DNA of 52,428 nucleotides, from contig JAFSTA010000152.1 in assembly GCA_017450695.1 (NCBI GenBank), forward strand, positions 1 to 52,428, read 5' to 3'. The stretch comes from Kiritimatiellia bacterium. GTDB lineage: Bacteria > Verrucomicrobiota > Kiritimatiellia > RFP12 > UBA1067. The notes under the pieces were generated by a model. The model made no database searches. It was given only the letters and a program-made list of their open reading frames with translations, and was not told the DNA's origin. Made by a program: the position numbers and the translations under genes. Of this stretch, positions 1,791-14,194 are shown piece after piece; the first letter of the stretch is position 1, and each line of letters opens with the position of its first letter.

Positions 1791-3116
1791 TCAGTTCCCC
1801 AACAACCCGCAGAGCCGAGGAATCGCCAGCGAGAGCCACGGAATGAACGTGATCAGCATCAGCGCGATTACCATCGCCAGAAAGAACGGAAGCGCCTTGA
1901 CGGTCACTTGCGCGATCGTGGTTTTCCCGACGCCGCATCCGATGAAGAGGCAGGTCCCGACAGGCGGCGTGCAGAGTCCGATGCAAAGGTTGGCGATCAG
2001 GACGATACCGAACTGGATGTCGCTCATGCCGAGCTGCCGGACGACCGGAAGGAGAATCGGCGTGAAGATCAGGATAGCCGGTGTCATATCCATAAACGTG
2101 CCGACCACCAGAAGAAGGAGGTTGATCGTCAGGAGGATCACGATCGGATTGTTCGAGAGACCGAGCAATCCATGCGAAACCGCCTGCGGGATGTTCGCCA
2201 CCGTCATAATCCACGACATCGAACTGGACGCCCCGATCAGAAGCATCACGACAGCCGTTGTCAGTCCCGTCTGCAGACAGATGCCGGGCAGGTCGCGGAA
2301 CGGGATCTCGCGGTAAAACACGCACGAGAGCAGGAAGGCGTACAGCACCGCGATGGCGGCAGCTTCCGTCGCGCTGAAGATACCGGCGAGAATCCCGCCG
2401 ATGATCACGATGACCAGCAGCAGACTGGGAATCGCGCGCCAGCAAATCTGCAAGGGCGTGTACGTAGGCTGTCCCGCTTCCGCCTGCTTGGAGACGGCGG
2501 TACGCTTCTTTCCGTAGCCGTGCTTGAGGCAGAGGATCGCCGCGGCGATGACGATGCACAGCCCCACGAGGATTCCCGGCAGGATGCCGGCCATGAACAT
2601 GGCGGCGATGGAAACCGACCCGGCCGCGACCGAATAGACGATCATGCAGTTCGACGGCGGGATCAGCAGTCCCGTCGTCGCGGCCGTCGCCGTGACAGCC
2701 ACGTTGAAATCGCGGTCATACCCTTCCCTGTTCATCTCGGGAATCATGAACCCGCCGATCGACGAGACGGCGGCGGCGGCGGAACCGGAGATGGAGCCGA
2801 AGAGCATACACGTAAAGACGTTGACGTAACTCAACCCGCCCGACAACTTGCCGACAAACAACGCCGCGAAATCGATCAGGCGCCGCGCCAGTCCGCCCTT
2901 TCCCATCAGGTAGCCGGAGAGGATGAAGAACGGGATCGCGAGCAGCGGGAAACTGTTCACGCCGTTCGCCATGCGCTGCGCGACCGTAAAGCCGGCGTCG
3001 CCGCCGTGTGCGCAGATCGCCAGCAGGGAGGAACCCGCAATCGCGACCGCGACCGGTGTATTCATCACGAGCAGGACAAAGAAAGAAACGACCAAGATCA
3101 AAATGATTCCTGACAT
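1791..3116 (-). CDS. dctM: TRAP transporter large permease subunit DctM
   Basis: This 441-residue, strongly hydrophobic protein matches the DctM family (usual length 425-440, about 12 membrane segments). DctM is the ion-coupled permease of tripartite ATP-independent periplasmic transporters. The N-terminal segment and the repeated glycine/proline-rich hairpins (for example GLLIPPSN and LCTPPVGTCLFIGC) are typical of the family. Its start lies two bases after the dctQ stop. A GGAGG ribosome-binding site sits inside the end of dctQ. The order dctP-dctQ-dctM-rsmB on the minus strand suggests one transcript. The substrate cannot be read from this subunit; an acidic sugar is possible given the sugar-acid enzyme nearby. 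Confidence 0.93.
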   Translation of the reverse strand: MSGIILILVVSFFVLLVMNTPVAVAIAGSSLLAICAHGGDAGFTVAQRMANGVNSFPLLAIPFFILSGYLMGKGGLARRLIDFAALFVGKLSGGLSYVNVFTCMLFGSISGSAAAAVSSIGGFMIPEMNREGYDRDFNVAVTATAATTGLLIPPSNCMIVYSVAAGSVSIAAMFMAGILPGILVGLCIVIAAAILCLKHGYGKKRTAVSKQAEAGQPTYTPLQICWRAIPSLLLVIVIIGGILAGIFSATEAAAIAVLYAFLLSCVFYREIPFRDLPGICLQTGLTTAVVMLLIGASSSMSWIMTVANIPQAVSHGLLGLSNNPIVILLTINLLLLVVGTFMDMTPAILIFTPILLPVVRQLGMSDIQFGIVLIANLCIGLCTPPVGTCLFIGCGVGKTTIAQVTVKALPFFLAMVIALMLITFIPWLSLAIPRLCGLLGN

Positions 3117-3118
3117 GG

Positions 3119-3688
3119 CTATTTGCCTCCTTCCTGTTGCGCGTCGTCACACACTTCCGCTGGTTTCCGGTAAATCTCAACCAGGCTTTCGGTGGCAAAG
3201 AGAATGATGAAAAGTCCGGCAAGGGGCAGAACTAGATACACCTCTCCGCGACTCAACCAGCGCATGGTCGGCAACTCCTGCGACATCTGTGACATCGCCA
3301 GGCTCCAGCCCCCGACCAAAAACACGACAACGGCCAGCGCGATCGTCAGCAGCTGGACGATGATCGCCAATGTCTTACGCGAAGTCGGATGCATCAGCCC
3401 CACGAAGAAATCGACACCGAGGTGCATCTTCTCGCCAAACGCCAGCGCCCCGCCGATCATCGAGATCCAGACGAGCAACACGCACGCCAACTCGTCGGTG
3501 TAGGACGCCTGCCCCAGCCAGCTGTCGGGAACCTTCCCCTGCAACAGCTGATGCGCGAGCGGACTGCCCATGACAAACCGCGTGAAGACACCCCAGATCA
3601 CATCGAGGACCAGCAGGATGACCATCGCGATCACCAGCCACTGGAGGAGTTTCACCAGCCCGTTCCGTACCCGTTTCGCCGCGCTCAT
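3119..3688 (-). CDS. dctQ: TRAP transporter small permease subunit DctQ
   Basis: This 189-residue membrane protein has about four predicted hydrophobic helices: an early one around residues 17-37, two central ones, and one near 150-168. That is the size and layout of DctQ, the small integral subunit that partners DctM in TRAP transporters. The segment DELACVLLVWISMIGGALAF resembles the family's conserved second helix. The ATG overlaps the dctP stop in an ATGA arrangement, which implies coupled translation. The protein has no other recognisable domain. Confidence rests on size, topology and position between clear dctP and dctM genes. Confidence 0.9.
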   Translation of the reverse strand: MSAAKRVRNGLVKLLQWLVIAMVILLVLDVIWGVFTRFVMGSPLAHQLLQGKVPDSWLGQASYTDELACVLLVWISMIGGALAFGEKMHLGVDFFVGLMHPTSRKTLAIIVQLLTIALAVVVFLVGGWSLAMSQMSQELPTMRWLSRGEVYLVLPLAGLFIILFATESLVEIYRKPAEVCDDAQQEGGK

Positions 3689-4713
3689 TCCTTCGTCTCC
3701 TGAATCTGGCGGTAGAGGTCACGGACGTCTTCGTAGTCCTTCTGCTGGAGAATCGGCTCGCAAGCCTTGCGGAAACTCTCGATGTCCGGCGTGATGATCT
3801 CGATCTTCTTCTCCTTCGCGATGCGGATGCATTCCTCGGTCTTTTCCGTCCAGAGTTTACGCTGGAAGGTCTCGGACTCGTCTGCCGCCTGCTGCAACGC
3901 CTTCTGCACATCCTCCGGCAATCCCTGCAGAATCTTGCGGGAGATGATCATCATGTCGGGAATACTCTGGTGTCCGGAACAGGAAAAATACTTGCAGACC
4001 TCAAAGTGACGGCTGGTGATGAAAGACGGCCAGTTGTTCTCCGCCGCATCGACCATTCCCTGCTGCAGGGCGGTGTAGAGTTCTCCCCAGCTCGTCGGAC
4101 AGGGGCTGCCGCCCATCGCGCGCACCATGTCCATCGCCGTGCGGCTGTTCATCACGCGCACCTTCAATCCCTTCACGTCCGCGACGGAGCGGATCGGCTT
4201 TTGCGTGCTGTAAAAGTCGCGTTGCCCGGAATCGTAGTAGCAAAGCCCCTGGAAATTCGCCTTCTGTCCGGCGGCCAGCAGTTGCTTCCCCAGCGGGCTG
4301 TGGAGAACCTTCCAGAAATGGTCGTGGTTCCGAAACGCGAAGGGAACGGAAAAGACCTTCATCTCCGGCAGAAACGCTTCCAACGCCGCCGTCGAAACTT
4401 TCGTCATTCCCAGCTCGCCCTTCTGCACCTGTTCCAGGCATTCCACCTCGTTGCCCAGAACCCCGCCGGAATAGACATCGAGTGAGGCATGTCCACCGGT
4501 CAACTCCTCCAGCCGTTTTTTCATGAAGAGCATCGCCTGGTGCACGGGGTGCTGTTCGTCCAAGCCGTGCGCCAGCTTCAGGACGATCTGTCCCTTTCCG
4601 GCGGCCGTTCCCCCGTCCTTCTTGGGACGAATCACAACCGCGCCTACGATACACGAAACGAGTACACCGACCATCAAGCCGGCCCAAAAGTACGAAACGT
4701 TTTGCTTAGCCAT
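3685..4713 (-). CDS. dctP: TRAP transporter periplasmic substrate-binding protein DctP
   Basis: The 342-residue protein starts with an N-terminal membrane segment (about residues 7-27) that serves as a signal peptide or anchor. A DctP-type solute-binding domain follows. The block beginning LKVRVMNSRT and running to a WGELYTALQQGMVDAAENN segment is the family's signature; its arginine normally grips the substrate carboxylate. I chose the ATG at 4713 because GGGAG lies eight bases upstream. An in-frame TTG four codons earlier has no such site. It heads the dctPQM-rsmB operon and overlaps dctQ by four bases. The ligand is unknown; family members bind C4-dicarboxylates, sialic acid, uronates and similar acids. 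Confidence 0.92.
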   Translation of the reverse strand: MAKQNVSYFWAGLMVGVLVSCIVGAVVIRPKKDGGTAAGKGQIVLKLAHGLDEQHPVHQAMLFMKKRLEELTGGHASLDVYSGGVLGNEVECLEQVQKGELGMTKVSTAALEAFLPEMKVFSVPFAFRNHDHFWKVLHSPLGKQLLAAGQKANFQGLCYYDSGQRDFYSTQKPIRSVADVKGLKVRVMNSRTAMDMVRAMGGSPCPTSWGELYTALQQGMVDAAENNWPSFITSRHFEVCKYFSCSGHQSIPDMMIISRKILQGLPEDVQKALQQAADESETFQRKLWTEKTEECIRIAKEKKIEIITPDIESFRKACEPILQQKDYEDVRDLYRQIQETKE

Positions 4714-5354
4714 AGTTACTCCCAACCAATCAAAAAAAGATTAGTTTCTCTAATTTTCCATCCGTTGTCCAGTCCGAAAACTGGTTTTTAGCTGGTAGGT
4801 GAAACGGTTAAATAGTGAAATGATTCAATCGTCGCTGACGCGACTTGAAATCGGCACACCGGATGAACATGGATGGACGCGGGGCTAAAAGCTAATCGCT
4901 ACAAGCTGACACCTAATAAGCTCAAGGTTGGGCAGTCACGACCAAAACCGACGGCGGGGGCGCCGTCGCTACGCATTACGGACGCGACGGGGCGCGTCCC
5001 TCCCGAAATATGCCTCCCCGCCTCTCTGCTTCTCAGCTGGCGCGAAGCGTCGCCACCCGATCCGGGAGGGTCGTGCCCCGTCACGACCAAAACCGACGGA
5101 ATTGCAACGACGGACGCGACGGGGCGCGTCCCGATTCTCCGAAACTCCGAGACTCCCCGCAACGGAAGCAATATCCCACTGCAGAAGCGGACGCGACGGG
5201 GCGCGTCCCCATGCTTCTCAGCCTCTCAGCTTCTCAGCCTCTCTGCTGGCGCGAAGCGCCCCCGCTTCTCAGCCTCCCCGCCCTCCTGTACATTCCCGTG
5301 CGAGCGCGTCGGGCGAACATAGAATCCAGGTCTCATCATCCAAGCGCTGCACAT
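4714..5354. repeat. intergenic repeat-rich gap
   Basis: No gene is seen. The part next to dctP (4714-4800) is AT-rich and may hold its promoter, but no convincing -35/-10 pair was found. The rest is mosaic repeat. It contains a TTAAATAGTGAAATGATTC-type run near 4809, two or three copies of GGACGCGACGGGGCGCGTCC (about 4980, 5110 and 5189), and a CTCCGAAACTCCGAGACTCC block at 5139-5158 that also occurs inverted near 20830. TTCTCAGCCTCTCAGC modules lie near 5215-5260. Confidence 0.65.
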
Positions 5355-6743: not shown

Positions 6744-7601
6744 TTACACGCCAGAATAGGCGGAAAAACCTCCGTCGATCGGAACGACAATCCCCGTCAC
6801 AAACGAGGACGCCTCATTGCTGACCAGCCAGAGCAACGCGCCGAGCAAATCCTCCGGTTTCCCGTAGTGTCCCATCGGCGTATTGCGGATGATCTTGGCG
6901 GAACGGGGCGTGGGCGAACCGTCCGGGTTCAAGAGCAAACTGCGGTTTTGGTTGGTCAGGAAAAATCCGGGGGCGATTGCGTTCACGCGAATTCCCGCTT
7001 TCGCGAAATGAACGGCGAGCCACTGCGTGAAGTTGCTCACCGCCGCTTTTGCCGCGCTGTACGCGGGAATCTTGGTTAGCGGGCGGTAGGCGTTCATCGA
7101 GGAGACGTTGAGAATCACGCCCCTGCCCGCCAGCGCCATCTTCTTTGTGAAAACCTGTGTGGATAACAAAGCCGCGATCACGTTCAGATCGAAGACAAAC
7201 TGGATGCCCTTCGGATCCAGGTCGTAGAAGGAGAGCTTGCCGGTTTCCGGATTCAGCAGATCCTCCTTGGAGAATTCCTCCATCGAGGTCGTTCCCTTCG
7301 GGCTGTTTCCGCCCGCGCCGTTGATCAAAATCGTCGGTGCCCCCAGCTTCTCCTCAATCTCCTTTTCAGCCTGCTCCAGGCTCTCCCGGTCAAGCGCGTT
7401 GCAAGCCACGGCGATCGCACGTCCGCCGGCCGCAATGATTTCATCCGCTACCTGTTGGGCGGCATCCAACTTGAGATCCGCGACCGCAACAGCCGCGCCG
7501 CATTCGGCAAGAGCCTTCGACATCATGCCGCACAATACACCGCCGCCACCCGTGACGACCGCGATTTCCTTCGACAAATCAACCTTGAACGGAACTTGCA
7601 T
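6744..7601 (-). CDS. SDR-family oxidoreductase, D-mannonate oxidoreductase (fructuronate reductase)-like
   Basis: This 285-residue cytoplasmic enzyme is a short-chain dehydrogenase/reductase. It has a glycine-rich cofactor motif TGGGGVLCG (17-25), NGAGG (94-98), and an active-site serine pair (167-168) with Y181-x3-K185 (YSAAK). The NGAGGNSP stretch and the PGFFLTNQNRSLL segment (about 211-223) resemble the Bacillus YjmF/UxuB-type D-mannonate oxidoreductases. These interconvert fructuronate and mannonate in hexuronate degradation. A strong AAAGGAG site precedes the ATG, and a promoter lies 40 bases upstream. Its operon partner is a secreted DUF1080 protein. I am sure of the SDR family and moderately sure of the uronate role. 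Confidence 0.85.
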   Translation of the reverse strand: MQVPFKVDLSKEIAVVTGGGGVLCGMMSKALAECGAAVAVADLKLDAAQQVADEIIAAGGRAIAVACNALDRESLEQAEKEIEEKLGAPTILINGAGGNSPKGTTSMEEFSKEDLLNPETGKLSFYDLDPKGIQFVFDLNVIAALLSTQVFTKKMALAGRGVILNVSSMNAYRPLTKIPAYSAAKAAVSNFTQWLAVHFAKAGIRVNAIAPGFFLTNQNRSLLLNPDGSPTPRSAKIIRNTPMGHYGKPEDLLGALLWLVSNEASSFVTGIVVPIDGGFSAYSGV

Positions 7602-8009: not shown

Positions 8010-10505
8010 TCAACGGTATTCCGTGCGGAAGAGCGTGGTGGACATCCCGTTCGTCCGAGGCGTGAAGAGAATACGGTCGGTGTCCGCGGCGAGTTCGCGA
8101 TGTTCTGGATACAGCATCGTTACCTTGGCGCGTCGCGGCAATTGAATCGTCTTTTCCCCCGGTAATGCGCAATGCAGCGCGACAGACGAAACGCTGGCAT
8201 AAATCGCCGATTGCGGATCCGCATTCCAGATGTGTACGTCGTTCTTGACGAACAGCTCGCGCAACGTCTCGGCAGAAAGAGGCTGTTCAGGAATCAGGAC
8301 GACTTTGCCTTTTGCACGAAGCGACTCCACCGCCTTTTCTTTTGCGGGTGTGCGATAATGGAGGTTGCAGAAGATGTACACCTGATAGTCCTTCAACTTG
8401 CCCGATGCAAGATCGACGATGGATGCCGAATCGAATGGTACGCCCGTATGTCCCAGCGCATTGACGAGATCGGTCGTTCGCGCATCGTTGAAGCGTGAAT
8501 CTCCCGCATTGGTGAGCATGACACTTTCGTAGTCGCCCACCACCAGCACTTCCGAGACGCTACGGCAATCCGTCACCTCCCGCCGAATGGCGTAGATTTT
8601 CTGAAAGAACTCCCTGAACTCCGGCGCGTCATACCAGCCGATGCCGAAATCGAAATACCAGTAGCCGCAACCCCAACACAAGGTCTGCGCAAAGTCCCGC
8701 GCCAGAATCGCAAGATCATCCTCACGGCTGCGCGTGTAATTTCCATGCGCATGACTTTCCTTGAACAAGGTCGTGACATTGTCCGCTTCCAGCAACGCCA
8801 GCTTTCCACGTCTGCGCAGTCCTTCCAGCAGGCAACGGGCATATTGCACATTCCCGGCGTCGCGCGAACCGGGACCGTACACGTAAGGAGAACATTGGAA
8901 ATCGACCCACGGAGAATCGAGGATCGCGTCATTCTCCAAATGGAACCCCTCCGCCGGAAACGGCATTCCAAAGAAGTACCCGCAGTAGTTGCCGACCAAC
9001 GCCCTGCCGCAACACGCCTCCTTCGCGGCGCGGTTGAAGGCGAACAGACAATCGCGCACCTGTTCGGAATGGCACCTCAAATAATCGATTGTCGGGCGGT
9101 CCTTCACAGGATCGCGCAACGAACCGGCCGAAGTACGCAACCTTTCCTCGCGGGACGGCACCTCGGCTGTCGCAAAGGTGACGGACACGCGATTCCATGC
9201 CCGTCGAAGCGCCTCTACATCCCCGTTGTAATTCCGTTCCAGCCAGCGACGGAATGCCGCCGTCATCGCTTTCCCGTTATCCGGCATATATCCCGTCATG
9301 CCGTAGTAATGCCATTCGTGGTGAATGCCGTAGTCGGGACGGTAGGCGTAAATGCGCGAGGCATACGGGGAGGATTCGAGGAATCGAACAAGGCGCGTGA
9401 TGTAGTCACCCGCCTCCCGGCGCCAAAGTGTAGAGGCGAGAGAGGGGGCAACGATATTCTGAATTTGAATGCCGACGGCAGGATCGGCCTTGCCGTTCGC
9501 ATACCCGATCACTTCGTCGGGATGCTTCTGCGACCACCAAGGGGGCGGCGAGGAGGTGTCGATGCAGAACTGGAAACGCGCCTCTGGATCGATGGAGAGA
9601 ACCGACCGGATCTTTTGTATCGCATTGTCAAAGTCGATGGATCCGTCCGCTTTCCAGACACTCGGCGTCTGGACTCCAATTCCGTACAGGTGGACACCCG
9701 CGTCGCGGAAGAAAGCGGTTTGTCGCCGTAGCTTTCGGTTGTCTCCGTTCCATCCCTCGGAACAGTTGTAAAAGGTTGTCTCGTAGCGTTTCCCGCCGAT
9801 ATCGAAATAAGGCTTGCCGTTTTCGTATGCAATCTTGCAGAGGGGCTTCTCCTCCTTCGCCAGCGACTCCATCGCCTTCGCCACCCGGCGATCAAGCGCC
9901 GCCCGGATTGCCGCACGCCGTTGCCTTTCAGGGAACGGCGCGAGCAACGACATATCCCGCAAGTTGATCCAGGGCGGAGAATAGACATCGTCGTAGATTT
10001 TCACCTTCTCCCAACCGGAATCGTCAAAACCGGGCGTTGCCCATTCGGCTGGCACTTCCTTCGCGCACCGCCATTCCGCCGTCGTAAAAACAGAGTCCGA
10101 CTTCCCGTCCGCGTATTGCAGTTCGATGGAGAGGCAGACACCGCCCACCCCAGCCAAGTTCCGTCCCTCCACAGCTAGAACGTGCCGCCCCCTGCCCTTC
10201 AACGCGGCTGTCAGCGTCACGGGATTTTCCACCGCCACCGAACCGCCGATCTTGTGTCCATCGAGAAAGACGGATCCGACATCGTCAATCCACCAACGCC
10301 CCGTCGCACGAACCAGCCCTTCGCGAGTCTCGAACGAGGTACGGTAATACCGCGTTTTCCCGATCGCCGTCGCGAACTCCTCGTTCGGACAAATCCACTT
10401 GACTTCACTCGCCAAAGACTCGTCTGCCCAATCCACCTCCGCATGGACACGCGGCAGAGTCATTCCAAACAATGCAAATGCCGTAAAAAACCTGAACCAC
10501 TTCAT
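8010..10505 (-). CDS. secreted GH42-like glycoside hydrolase
   Basis: The 831-residue protein starts with a signal peptide (MKWFRFFTAFALFGMTLPRVHA). An N-terminal jelly-roll carbohydrate-binding-like domain (about 25-170) resembles galactose-binding domains of beta-galactosidases. A TIM-barrel region with GH42/clan-A features follows. E397 in HHEWHYYG and E573 in LALLEADN lie 176 residues apart, close to the acid/base and nucleophile spacing of GH42. The C-terminal part (about 650-780) resembles a Rossmann-like trimerisation domain. I chose the ATG at 10505 because AAGGGGGGA precedes it and a signal peptide follows; an upstream extension encodes only repeat-derived sequence. It is probably periplasmic or extracellular. 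The exact GH family and substrate are inferred, not certain. Confidence 0.75.
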   Translation of the reverse strand: MKWFRFFTAFALFGMTLPRVHAEVDWADESLASEVKWICPNEEFATAIGKTRYYRTSFETREGLVRATGRWWIDDVGSVFLDGHKIGGSVAVENPVTLTAALKGRGRHVLAVEGRNLAGVGGVCLSIELQYADGKSDSVFTTAEWRCAKEVPAEWATPGFDDSGWEKVKIYDDVYSPPWINLRDMSLLAPFPERQRRAAIRAALDRRVAKAMESLAKEEKPLCKIAYENGKPYFDIGGKRYETTFYNCSEGWNGDNRKLRRQTAFFRDAGVHLYGIGVQTPSVWKADGSIDFDNAIQKIRSVLSIDPEARFQFCIDTSSPPPWWSQKHPDEVIGYANGKADPAVGIQIQNIVAPSLASTLWRREAGDYITRLVRFLESSPYASRIYAYRPDYGIHHEWHYYGMTGYMPDNGKAMTAAFRRWLERNYNGDVEALRRAWNRVSVTFATAEVPSREERLRTSAGSLRDPVKDRPTIDYLRCHSEQVRDCLFAFNRAAKEACCGRALVGNYCGYFFGMPFPAEGFHLENDAILDSPWVDFQCSPYVYGPGSRDAGNVQYARCLLEGLRRRGKLALLEADNVTTLFKESHAHGNYTRSREDDLAILARDFAQTLCWGCGYWYFDFGIGWYDAPEFREFFQKIYAIRREVTDCRSVSEVLVVGDYESVMLTNAGDSRFNDARTTDLVNALGHTGVPFDSASIVDLASGKLKDYQVYIFCNLHYRTPAKEKAVESLRAKGKVVLIPEQPLSAETLRELFVKNDVHIWNADPQSAIYASVSSVALHCALPGEKTIQLPRRAKVTMLYPEHRELAADTDRILFTPRTNGMSTTLFRTEYR

Positions 10506-10757
10506 CGATTCCCCCCTTGTAACAGCTGGTAGCCGGGTAAGCGCGGGAAGCCGGGCAAGCATTGCGGTCGCGACAGGGCGCGACCCGTTCAAAACTCTGA
10601 CCTGAGAACTCGGAACTGGCACGTAGTGCCCCGCCTCTCAGCTTCCCCGCTTACCATACTTTGCTTCTCAGCCTCTCAGCTGGCACATAGTGCCTTCAGC
10701 TGGCGCGAAGCGCCCCGGTGGGTTATCACCTACCAGCCACAAGCTACCTGCTAACAG
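10506..10757. repeat. intergenic repeat mosaic
   Basis: No gene is seen. A GGTAAGC...GGCAAGC run (10534-10560) leads into a block of about 55 bases, GCATTGCGGTCGCGACAGGG and onward through TTCAAAACTCTGACC. The same order recurs at 14258-14311. GCTTCTCAGCCTCTCAGCTG and GGCGCGAAGCGCC modules fill 10630-10720. Confidence 0.65.
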
Positions 10758-11702
10758 CTAATACCTGGTAACAGCCACTAGCATTTTCTCCAATCCCGTC
10801 CGCACCGTTTCCAGCGGTGTGGTCTGACAGTACTCCGCGTGGAAGAGTTCCAGTGACAACCACGGATAACAGGAGTTGCCGCGCAGAATCTCGAAGATCC
10901 GTCGCCACGGTGCAATGCCGTCACCTGGCCAAACCCGATCCGCGTCTTTCAGTTGCCCCCGTTCGGGCGTGGCGGGGTAGTCGTTCATGTGCAACACAGG
11001 CAGCGTCGCGGAGGTAAGGAAACGGAATGCCTCCACCGAGCAACCGCCGCGATACGTGTGGTAAACGTCTGCCAGAACAGCCGCATCCGGATGTTCGCTT
11101 GCCGCAGCCACGGCGATCGCCTCATCCAAACGCGAGAGATTGGCAGAGGCCCCCCAGAATTCCAACAGCGGTCTCACGCCCATTGTTGCGCCCAACTCCA
11201 GGACCGCGCGGTAGCGTTCCGCCAATGCCTCCAGCGGCACCTTCGGTTGCCCCGTGATACCGGCGGGCGGCGCCGCGATTCGCGTGCATCCCAACTCCGC
11301 CACGAGAGCCATGTCACGCTTCATCTCCTCCAGCCCCTTCGCGCGTTCCGTCGCATCGGAGACAGCCCAAGGAGCGAACCCGATCGCGTTGATCAACGCC
11401 AAAGGCGCATCCGCACAGCGGGCGCGTAATTCCGCCAACTCCCCTTTCTCCTTCGCGATCCGAATGTCGCTCACCCACGGTTCGATCCCGTCATACCCGG
11501 CCTCGATCGCGATCCGAATCTGTTCGCGGAACGGGAGCTTATAGGGACGGACGGTGGCGGGATTGAGCGAGAAACGGAAACGCGGCTTACCGTCCGCAGC
11601 TTGTTTTCCCTCTTTCGCAAACGCGCCCGAAACCGCAACGCCCGCTGACATTCCGACGCAGGCTAGAAAGCTGCGCCGCCTCATTTGACTCATGGTTTTC
11701 AT
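10758..11702 (-). CDS. Tat-exported sugar phosphate isomerase/epimerase-like TIM-barrel protein
   Basis: This 314-residue protein starts with a twin-arginine signal (MRRRSFLACVGMSAGVAVSG, about residues 7-26). A xylose-isomerase-like TIM barrel (AP endonuclease 2 superfamily) follows, with typical segments such as AGYDGIEPWV, LGCTRIAAPPAG, LLEFWGASA, HMNDYPA and a final WLSLELFHAEY. Family members isomerise or epimerise sugars using a divalent metal held by Glu/Asp/His; E, D and H residues sit at the expected strand ends. The ATG at 11702 was chosen because GGGGAG lies nine bases upstream; an earlier in-frame TTG-ATG overlaps the preceding stop codon. The gene follows the HzsA-related gene by 23 bases, which suggests co-transcription. 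Export of this fold is common in PVC and Bacteroidetes genomes. Confidence 0.85.
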   Translation of the reverse strand: MKTMSQMRRRSFLACVGMSAGVAVSGAFAKEGKQAADGKPRFRFSLNPATVRPYKLPFREQIRIAIEAGYDGIEPWVSDIRIAKEKGELAELRARCADAPLALINAIGFAPWAVSDATERAKGLEEMKRDMALVAELGCTRIAAPPAGITGQPKVPLEALAERYRAVLELGATMGVRPLLEFWGASANLSRLDEAIAVAAASEHPDAAVLADVYHTYRGGCSVEAFRFLTSATLPVLHMNDYPATPERGQLKDADRVWPGDGIAPWRRIFEILRGNSCYPWLSLELFHAEYCQTTPLETVRTGLEKMLVAVTRY

Positions 11703-11725
11703 GTGCAGATCTCCCCAAAAATCCA

Positions 11726-14194
11726 TCAACGACAGACATTGGCGGCATCCTCGGCATCCGCCAGTTTCCGTTTTTCCATCGTGTAGTCACTCCGCCGTTT
11801 GTCGTCATCCGACCAGATGTTCGCCTCCAGATAATCGCCGCAGAACGGCACCCCCAAATCGACCCACATCGCAAGTTTCCGTTTCTCCGCATCGGTCATG
11901 CCGGGTGCGTGATCCTTGTCCAGCATCTCGAAAAGCTTGCTCTTGGCGGAGCCGAAGGAAAGCGGCGGCAGAAGGGTGGGCACGGAACCGGAAGAAATCC
12001 AGTTCAACACGGGATGATTCGGTTTCCCATGGAAAAACTCGTTTTCGTTGGGACGCGCGGAATGCGTCAATGTCAGGTAGGACTGCAACCAACGGCGTTT
12101 CGCCTTCCGGTCATCTACCGGCGTGGATGTCAGGTCGGAATGCGCTGTCTTGCCGGGCGCGTGGCACGAGACACAACGTGCATCCAGAATCGGCTGGATG
12201 TCGCGGGTGAAGCTCAATCCGCGTGGCGCGTCGAGAATCGGACGCAGCGATTGCGGTCCGGCACGCATCGCCAGCGTCGGCTGGAGTTCCGCAACGGGGG
12301 CGCTGTTCCGCGACTCGTGACAACCGACACACGAGGCGTTTTCGCCGGGCTGGATCGTCACCCAACTGCGCATACTCTGCACCATCCGCCCCTTCTCGTC
12401 AAGCAGCAGGAAGAAGAGCGGACGACGCGCGTCTGCCGTGAAGAAGACGGAACCGTCCTCATGCACCTGGGCATCCCCCAACGGGGCTTTCACGCTCCAC
12501 GATCCGATACCCGTGGAGGGCGGCGAACAGGAGAGTCCGCCACCGCCGTCTCCCCAATTCGCGGTCTGTCCGATTCCGACATGACGGTACTTCAGCTCGA
12601 CCACACGCAACGTCTTCACCTTGCCACGGGGAATCCCGCGCATCGACTCGCCGCGATAGACATCCTGCACGTAGAACGTTCCCGTGCGCTTGCTCCAATC
12701 GACTTGCGAAACACGCTGCGGGGTGAACCGTCGCGCTTGCAGCGGGACGGGACGACCGCAGGGTTTACGGTCTCGACGGGAGACAAGCAACTCGCGTTCC
12801 CCCTGCACGTTCGTCCAATAGAGTCCCATCCGAGCCAAGTGGTGGCGGTACTGTGGATGTCCATCCTTGTTGCGAGGCCATCCCTCCGGGAGAAAGGAAA
12901 GCACGACCTCGTTCTCGTTCACGGGATAGGGATAGGCCGCGATCCTCCCCGCCTGACCATAGGCGTCGATTCGAACCGCCTTCGCTTTACGCAACGGCTC
13001 GACCTGCCAGCATCCCTCCGCCTCCTCGCGTCCCTCCTGCGGATTCACGCGAATCAGCTCGCCGGGCTGGAGACTGTGGTGGCCGGTCGCGATCCCGAAA
13101 CAGAGAGGGGAGCCTGGAACCTGCCGCGCATGGATCAGCGTGGTGGGGAACCAGGAGTTGCCACCGTAGAACGCCTGCTGGGAGGTGCCGTCAGCCGCCA
13201 TCTGGAAGAGCGGTTGCGGGAACATCTGCGAGCGGTCGTTGTATTCCCAGCGCGTGTAGAGAACGCGACCGTCCTCCGTCACGGAAGGATAATTGTCATG
13301 AACCTGATCAAAGGTCATGCGGATGATTTTCGACCCGTCCGCCTCGCAACGGTAGAGGTTGCTCACCTCCGTCCACCAGCAATCGACAATCTGCATACAG
13401 CGTGTGGAATTGAAGAGAATCCGCCCGTCGGGAAGGTAACATCCCTCGTAGTCGGCGACACCTGCACCAAAGGTGAGCTGCCGCGTTTCGCGATTCTCGA
13501 TGGTCAGTTCATACAGGTGGAAATCGTCGTTGCGGTCATGTGCCTTGTAAGAATAGAGAACCCGTTTTCCGTCCGGCGAGACATCGACATCGCGAAAGGT
13601 TCCCGTGTCCGAATGAAGCAAGACCGTTTCATTCCAGCAGCCATTGCTTGCATATTCGGCGAGGCAGAGCTGGCTGCCGACCGAAAAATAGGTACGCTCG
13701 TTCTGCGCGTCGGACAACGCCTCGGTATAGGCGTAGTGCGAACCGCCCATGATGTAATGACGCGCATACACCCACCGGCGCGGGAGATTGCGCAACCTCG
13801 CCTCGCGCCGCGCGAGACAAGCCAGGCGGTAACGGGACAGAGATTCCGCCGCATTCGCAGGATCAAAAGGCGGCAACTTGTGAACGGCGAAGGCATCGGA
13901 GACTCGCTTCCGGCAATCGCCCTCGAAGAACGATTCGCTCGGCTTGAGCTTGGCGTCCTGGGAAAGCCAATCCGCAAGCAGCTCGTCATGGTTTTCCAAG
14001 ATCGACCAAGCCCGTTGTGAGGGGAATCCCTTCTCCTCCGCCGTCAACGTACGACCCAACAACGACTCCACACATGGAACGGTTTCCGGCGGAATCGCGA
14101 CCGCGGAAAGAGAAAAAAACAAGACACCGCCAACAAGCAAGCGGCCCCCAAAGTCTGATACATGCTTCCCTGTTCTCATTTTCATAAGCCACAT
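11726..14194 (-). CDS. secreted HzsA-related (hydrazine synthase alpha middle-domain) haem-binding protein
   Basis: This 822-residue protein has a hydrophobic signal segment (about 17-34). It continues with a WD40/PD40-like propeller (around 190-480; blocks such as DVDVSPDGKRVLYSYKAHD and GCYLPDGRILFNST). A C-terminal cytochrome-like part carries two c-type haem motifs, CVGCH at 622-626 and CVSCH at 674-678. This layout matches proteins annotated as HzsA-related in Planctomycetes and Verrucomicrobia, which resemble the alpha subunit of anammox hydrazine synthase but occur in non-anammox bacteria with unknown function. A TATAAT overlaps the first ATG, so the true start may be the fourth codon (ATG at 14185) on a leaderless message. 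It is probably the first gene of an operon with the Tat-exported TIM-barrel protein. I do not propose hydrazine synthesis. Confidence 0.8.
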   Translation of the reverse strand: MWLMKMRTGKHVSDFGGRLLVGGVLFFSLSAVAIPPETVPCVESLLGRTLTAEEKGFPSQRAWSILENHDELLADWLSQDAKLKPSESFFEGDCRKRVSDAFAVHKLPPFDPANAAESLSRYRLACLARREARLRNLPRRWVYARHYIMGGSHYAYTEALSDAQNERTYFSVGSQLCLAEYASNGCWNETVLLHSDTGTFRDVDVSPDGKRVLYSYKAHDRNDDFHLYELTIENRETRQLTFGAGVADYEGCYLPDGRILFNSTRCMQIVDCWWTEVSNLYRCEADGSKIIRMTFDQVHDNYPSVTEDGRVLYTRWEYNDRSQMFPQPLFQMAADGTSQQAFYGGNSWFPTTLIHARQVPGSPLCFGIATGHHSLQPGELIRVNPQEGREEAEGCWQVEPLRKAKAVRIDAYGQAGRIAAYPYPVNENEVVLSFLPEGWPRNKDGHPQYRHHLARMGLYWTNVQGERELLVSRRDRKPCGRPVPLQARRFTPQRVSQVDWSKRTGTFYVQDVYRGESMRGIPRGKVKTLRVVELKYRHVGIGQTANWGDGGGGLSCSPPSTGIGSWSVKAPLGDAQVHEDGSVFFTADARRPLFFLLLDEKGRMVQSMRSWVTIQPGENASCVGCHESRNSAPVAELQPTLAMRAGPQSLRPILDAPRGLSFTRDIQPILDARCVSCHAPGKTAHSDLTSTPVDDRKAKRRWLQSYLTLTHSARPNENEFFHGKPNHPVLNWISSGSVPTLLPPLSFGSAKSKLFEMLDKDHAPGMTDAEKRKLAMWVDLGVPFCGDYLEANIWSDDDKRRSDYTMEKRKLADAEDAANVCR

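Follow-up and report, generated by a model that had tools for sequence, protein, structure and literature searches.

An HzsA-related dihaem protein of Kiritimatiellae whose better-supported candidate partner is a hydrazine synthase beta-gamma-like protein and not the adjacent TIM barrel

The window studied here, a stretch of 52,428 nucleotides from the genome of a Kiritimatiellia bacterium (5.0 Mb in 287 contigs), encodes a protein related to the alpha subunit of hydrazine synthase (HzsA) next to a sugar isomerase-like TIM barrel protein. An earlier note on this stretch took the pairing as a sign that a sugar undergoes a redox step in the periplasm. Our analyses point in another direction: the two genes seem to be neighbours by accident, and the partner of the alpha-like protein that recurs and has the better support is a protein resembling the beta and gamma subunits of hydrazine synthase (HZS), not the TIM barrel. 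The explanation that we prefer, and whose chances we consider to be about even, is that the window gene encodes the alpha-type subunit of an HZS-like alpha/beta-gamma redox enzyme and lies beside a sugar locus by chance.

The HzsA-related gene (11726..14194, minus strand) is an 822-aa frame with an ATG start, characterized by the list of open reading frames, Pfam, a PDB sequence search and a structural model. By reading, its product starts with a probable Sec signal; a TolB-like propeller is followed by an HZS_alpha middle domain and a C-terminal cytochrome c domain. Pfam places the middle domain (PF18582) at aa 524-627 (12314..12625, minus strand), with an E-value of 2.7e-28 and 98.8 bits against a cut-off of 26.6, and the top PDB chain by sequence is hydrazine synthase alpha itself (5c2v_A; phmmer, E 4.6e-12). 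The structural data agree with this. Thus, the AlphaFold2 model, built from a 61-sequence input, has a pLDDT of 90.0 and a pTM of 0.89, and its first structural match is 5c2v_D (Z 30.2, rmsd 3.3, 575 aligned residues, 20% identity), the TolB propellers ranking after it with a Z of about 24-25 for the N-terminal propeller. The ranking by Foldseek is the same (5c2v_A, E 9.9e-31, TM-score 0.56 by query length). The curated NCBIfam model NF052339 (hydrazine_alpha), on the other hand, scores only 52.1 bits against its cut-off of 800, so the equivalog threshold is missed. The window protein is a member of the family by fold, and not a hydrazine synthase.

The residues around the haem sites lead to the same view. 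The first CxxCH motif (CVGCH, aa 622-626; 12317..12331, minus strand) is equivalent to that of haem alpha-I and the second (CVSCH, aa 674-678; 12161..12175, minus strand) to that of haem alpha-II, and each is present in 61/61 homologues. The earlier note was thus right in describing an HzsA relative with two CxxCH motifs. Judged from its motifs, the protein would carry two c-type haems. The phmmer alignment pairs His762 (11909..11911, minus strand), also found in all 61 homologues, with His772, the distal ligand of haem alpha-II; it corresponds to residue 745 of chain 5c2v_A, which becomes His772 with an offset of 27 that was fixed by His587 as given in the available part of PMC12758564. Because the second CxxCH motif and His762 are invariant, the haem-II site looks complete. 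The ligand that makes haem I special, in contrast, appears to be gone. In a profile of the 61 sequences aligned with 5c2v_A, Asn630 (12305..12307, minus strand) stands where hydrazine synthase has its proximal Tyr591, and this column holds Asn in 54 of the 61 homologues and Tyr in none. Both assignments, of Asn/Tyr and of His772, are sequence alignments and not haem-pocket geometry. The haem ligands of hydrazine synthase are given in the part of PMC12607021 available to us. The stretch of the profile around the zinc ligand Cys303 is without residue-level alignment to 5c2v_A; according to the available part of PMC12758564, this cysteine is not conserved across all anammox bacteria.

As no homologue has a tyrosine at the Tyr591 position, the protein probably does not synthesize hydrazine, and to that extent the earlier view that nitrogen chemistry is not involved is probably correct. 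It is true that the HZS_alpha domain, the fold and a beta-gamma-like gene elsewhere in the genome are what would be expected of a genuine hydrazine synthase alpha subunit in a bacterium outside the Brocadiales. However, given the NF052339 score and the replacement of Tyr591 by Asn630, we rejected this identity and regard it as extremely improbable. A search of the window's genome for PF13447 (HAO-type multihaem proteins), run without a positive control, gave no match and therefore carries no weight.

The gene downstream encodes an IolI-like PF01261 TIM barrel with a Tat signal (10758..11726, minus strand; Pfam and PDB search). The Pfam match has an E-value of 9.7e-29 and 101.2 bits against a cut-off of 31.1. 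Its start may be the ATG at 11726 or that at 11702, and the list of open reading frames gives a TTG at 11729 (10758..11729). Since all three possible starts are within about 25 bases of the stop of the HzsA-like gene, it is plausible that both genes are on a common transcript. The twin-arginine motif RRRSFLACVG (11652..11681, minus strand) is kept in 9/10 orthologues with a readable N-terminus, the window included; outside this count are one orthologue running off its contig and one (L197) missed by the gene caller. With this signal and a TatC in the window's genome, export of the barrel is predicted. Further downstream, on the same strand, are genes for a GH42-like protein (8010..10622; Pfam), a short-chain dehydrogenase (SDR; 6744..7601; family search) and a double 3-keto-disaccharide hydrolase (PF06439; 5412..6725; family search) with a signal-like N-terminus by reading, and three TRAP-transporter-like genes (1791..4725) named by reading their translations alone. 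These surroundings are of a carbohydrate type. Two statements of the earlier note, on an export signal of the neighbouring barrel and on a carbohydrate-degradation region, hold. Together with the barrels of loci L191-L200, that of the window (10758-11726) makes up a Kiritimatiellae subfamily of IolI-like PF01261 proteins in which the Tat signal is conserved while the gene surroundings vary.

This arrangement could mean that the dihaem protein and the exported barrel act jointly on a sugar in the periplasm by a redox reaction, for instance an oxidation followed by an isomerisation or elimination. The tight spacing on one strand and the sugar-type locus would fit this idea, and so would the recurrence of the pair in a genome of the same genus, with identities of 91% and 82% to the two window proteins. 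The nearest named relative with the same pair is a Kiritimatiellae MAG from sheep rumen, whose HzsA-like protein is 91% identical. However, the comparison with relatives argues against it. HzsA-like matches at an E-value of 1e-30 or better are present in 36/60 related genomes, and we surveyed the neighbourhoods of 32 HzsA-like genes (from related genomes and the window) as well as 80 GTDB loci. Adjacent orthologues of both genes were found in the window and that one same-genus genome only. Moreover, among the matches listed for eight genomes, a PF01261 gene is within 3 kb of an HZS_alpha gene in 4 of 158 cases, and about 4.2 (4.16) are expected from gene density, an expectation that is somewhat high because contig ends were uncorrected. 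This count covers 150 of 164 HZS_alpha and 150 of 178 PF01261 matches in seven genomes; for the window's own genome it covers eight rough HzsA positions (a fragment on contig C116 was left out) and the 18/20 PF01261 matches above cut-off. In the other three of the four pairs, the HzsA-like proteins are mutually only about 30% identical. With proximity at the rate of chance, the pairing loses the weight that the earlier note gave it as evidence for a sugar redox step.

The view from the barrel is similar. Of 37 genomes, the window's own included, 12 have an orthologue with at least 51% identity (two of the 14 genomes with matches, G039 and G044, had weak ones only and were left out), and none of the ten barrel loci fetched from other genomes holds an HzsA-like gene. 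In the six other genomes with both, the barrel orthologue and the window-type HzsA are on different contigs; in G014, HzsA-like paralogues do occur on the contig of the barrel orthologue (C65), about 9 kb away and further, outside the fetched stretch. Scanning the neighbours of HzsA orthologues (110 of the 116 listed, six long ones being dropped) revealed no dominant Pfam family: the commonest, GFO_IDH_MocA, was found four times, and PF01261 twice, one of these being the window's own barrel. In a control scan of beta-gamma loci, which covered 110 of their 116 genes after four long and two end-of-list genes had been dropped, GFO_IDH_MocA was found three times; its commonest family was DAHP synthase (five), because the control loci are beta-gamma loci. 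As the output of each scan is limited to its 25 commonest families, a lone PF01261 gene in the control would have gone unnoticed. The neighbourhoods in relatives that the earlier note had proposed to survey are thus largely random.

Three further observations could still be taken in favour of a joint sugar reaction. Firstly, in a genome of another genus (G036), a GH42-like gene that is orthologous to the window's and broken into two frames (L040:4660-7288) is near the HzsA orthologue. Secondly, the window-type HzsA and the barrel orthologues tend to share genomes: among 37, both are present in eight, HzsA only in four, the barrel only in four and neither in 21 (Fisher p 0.006, kinship ignored). 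Thirdly, in two Planctomycetota loci (L155 and L158) an HzsA-like gene has as its divergent neighbour a distant homologue of the barrel, the called start of which is closely preceded by a Tat-like motif. Such distant homologues beside HzsA-like genes (L155, L158 and L165, which are one syntenic block, and L189) were set aside: they align well apart from the barrel of the window, and 4/80 loci with such a neighbour is probably not clearly above the density of these genes. None of the three outweighs the chance-level adjacency. We therefore rejected the pair as a conserved system, on the near-chance adjacency, the single same-genus recurrence and the empty barrel loci, and consider a joint sugar reaction rather improbable.

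A different partner emerges from the loci of the relatives. In 7 of the 80 GTDB loci a beta-gamma-like gene is directly downstream of the alpha-like gene. In the one whose domains were scanned (L173), the product combines a propeller of the YNCE type with a dihaem peroxidase domain, and it matches both the beta (5c2v_B, E 2.7e-31) and the gamma subunit (5c2v_C, E 6.6e-23) of hydrazine synthase, which identifies it as a fused beta-gamma type. The alphas of these loci are 43-47% identical to the window's where they could be aligned (6/7). The window's genome has one copy of such a gene, 47% identical to that of L173, on another contig and unlinked to the window gene (G000:C117:51136-52953); no beta-gamma match was found among the genes called in the window. 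Also present is a CcsA-type cytochrome c assembly gene, on contig C59, so cytochrome c maturation, which the earlier note had named as a check, is present.

Beta-gamma-like homologues are present in 22 of 37 genomes, the window's own included. Alpha-like and beta-gamma-like genes occur together in 21, HzsA alone in two, beta-gamma alone in one and neither in 13, fragments in G016 being scored as beta-gamma present. However, the pattern of HzsA against CcsA is nearly equal (both 22, HzsA only one, CcsA only three, neither 11), and the co-occurrence may therefore mark only the possession of c-type cytochromes; within the CcsA-positive genomes it has a p of 0.03, kinship ignored. In the genome counts, the L111 record and a contig of G001, which agree in length and in match, were taken as one genome, and gene calls in fetched loci were made with our own hexamer-based caller.

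Physical linkage was examined as well. Of 20 beta-gamma loci from a draw across the class, 8 have an alpha-like gene within 3 kb on the same strand, against none of ten barrel loci. These 20 loci, from 18 genomes and including three from the window's own order, are part of 27 places; the remaining seven are in genomes already fetched, and one of them is a fusion and one an adjacent pair. The fusion (L226:1497-10832, contig C36 of G014) is a single frame of 3111 aa with an alpha at aa 1024-1667 (E 3e-197) and a beta-gamma at aa 2300-2885 (E 1e-150), besides passenger-repeat, FGE-sulfatase-like (sulfatase-modifying-factor-like) and PKD regions and four CxxCH motifs. From its sequence, it is a natural alpha/beta-gamma fusion, observed in one MAG only; none of the other long beta-gamma frames in the 27 places held an alpha. 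Within the window's family, five loci (L220, L224, L225, L227 and L228) pair an alpha with a second type of beta-gamma, the last four having been chosen after searches had placed the two genes near each other. Those alphas of the family that are linked or fused resemble distant paralogues; two of them are 33-35% identical. In a quick tree with long branches among paralogues, the six beta-gamma-linked alphas that were included are all in the sister group to the window's group. The window-type subfamily itself (58 tree rows) spans, by record names, Kiritimatiellota, Verrucomicrobiota, Planctomycetota, Lentisphaerota and one Armatimonadota.

The loci of the main beta-gamma gene in the window's order (L201-L220) have an organization of their own. 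The gene is followed by a RidA/FkbO-Hyg5 chorismatase-like gene in 15/20 loci, DAHP synthase is upstream in 7/20, and ResB and CcsA are downstream in 7/20, one of each having been domain-scanned; shikimate-pathway genes thus sit with cytochrome biogenesis at these loci. On contig C117 of the window's genome, only a RidA-like gene adjoins the beta-gamma gene.

That the window alpha is unlinked to any beta-gamma gene is the main weakness of the alpha-subunit reading. No beta-gamma gene was found in the 63 clustered loci holding window-type orthologues of the family, whose neighbours are varied, and an alpha-like gene is near the main beta-gamma gene of the order in 1/20 loci only (L220, a second-type copy). 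In addition, alphas far outnumber their candidate partners: seven genomes of the family contain 11-36 HZS_alpha matches each and the six of these seven that were searched have one to three beta-gamma loci, so the alphas cannot each own a partner. A rival reading, which we consider somewhat less probable than the alpha-subunit reading, is that the window protein is a stand-alone periplasmic dihaem protein, such as an electron carrier, a peroxidase-like protein or a sensory propeller, which needs no beta-gamma partner. On the other hand, its fold is that of a complex subunit, and the linkage of alpha and beta-gamma in relatives is recurrent, down to one fusion.

With 36 matches in G014, 30 in G017, 29 in G021 and 26 in G007, the family shows a large expansion of c-type haem proteins. 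In two loci (L058:7572-12014 and L150:4873-9300) an HzsA-like protein begins, within a single frame, with a sodium/bile-acid-symporter (SBF) domain, found by Pfam in L058 and by reading in L150; the contig of L058 is as long as that of L148.

In the explanation that we prefer, the window gene encodes a c-type dihaem protein located outside the cytoplasm and folded into the three domains of hydrazine synthase alpha, with haem site I in the middle and haem II in the C-terminal domain. It would act as the catalytic subunit, in the periplasm, together with the propeller and dihaem-peroxidase protein encoded on C117, and electrons would pass via the peroxidase-type haems of the latter. Haem site I of alpha would be presented to a substrate, without hydrazine chemistry because the special tyrosine ligand is absent. 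The TIM barrel with its Tat signal would belong to the adjacent sugar-degradation genes and be next to alpha by chance. The domains, the fold, the conserved motifs, the beta-gamma-like and CcsA genes of the genome, and the linkage and single fusion in relatives are observed, whereas we infer the complex with this particular alpha, the loading with haem, the substrate and the direction of the electrons. A bolder idea, which we think unlikely, is that sugar-degrading gut Kiritimatiellae have a modular HZS-like enzyme system. In it, a single conserved beta-gamma core of the peroxidase type, often encoded beside genes for cytochrome c maturation, would work with ten to three dozen exchangeable alphas, each of which would offer its haem site to another organic compound, for example one released when glycans are degraded.

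Our literature search found no function for the HzsA-related family outside anammox bacteria, and nothing joining Kiritimatiell-, cytochrome c and hydrazine synthase. The available part of PMC12758564 describes co-located alpha and beta-gamma homologues and the loss of key residues, and that of PMC10732223 suggests that hydrazine-synthase-like enzymes are a wider family with other substrates. To this the present analysis adds how far the family has expanded in this lineage of Kiritimatiellae, the fusion, the finding that the haem-II ligand is kept, and a test of the pairing with the sugar gene. The association of alpha-like with beta-gamma-like proteins, in one case within a single natural chain, gives what was only an annotation label the form of an enzyme complex that can be tested, and it is relevant to the nature of hydrazine synthase before hydrazine became its product. 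The results also call for caution, as one neighbouring gene is no basis for reading either sugar or nitrogen chemistry.

Set against known systems, the window's barrel is like the IolI-type PF01261 sugar isomerases (1i60, E 3.5e-10) but differs from them in bearing a Tat signal. The HzsA-related protein shares its N-terminal propeller with TolB propellers, which to our knowledge have no haem domains. With hydrazine synthase alpha (HzsA, 5C2V) it has in common the three-domain fold, the HZS_alpha domain, the two CxxCH motifs and the distal histidine of haem alpha-II; unlike HzsA, it has an asparagine for the proximal Tyr591, its overall identity is 20%, and there is no adjacent hzsB or hzsC and no fusion. 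The available part of PMC12758564 reports that His772 is absent in clade I and that clades II-III have no haem II site, whereas the second CxxCH and the histidine are invariant in the window homologues (61/61); of the clades in that source, clade IV is possibly the nearest to the window protein. In comparison with the HZS-like clusters reported there, the window gene stands apart from its beta-gamma gene and is one of many alpha paralogues. Its relatives, however, do as the HZS-like alpha/beta-gamma clusters outside anammox bacteria do, as far as the available parts of PMC12758564 and PMC10732223 describe them, and pair an alpha-like gene with a fused beta-gamma-like gene.
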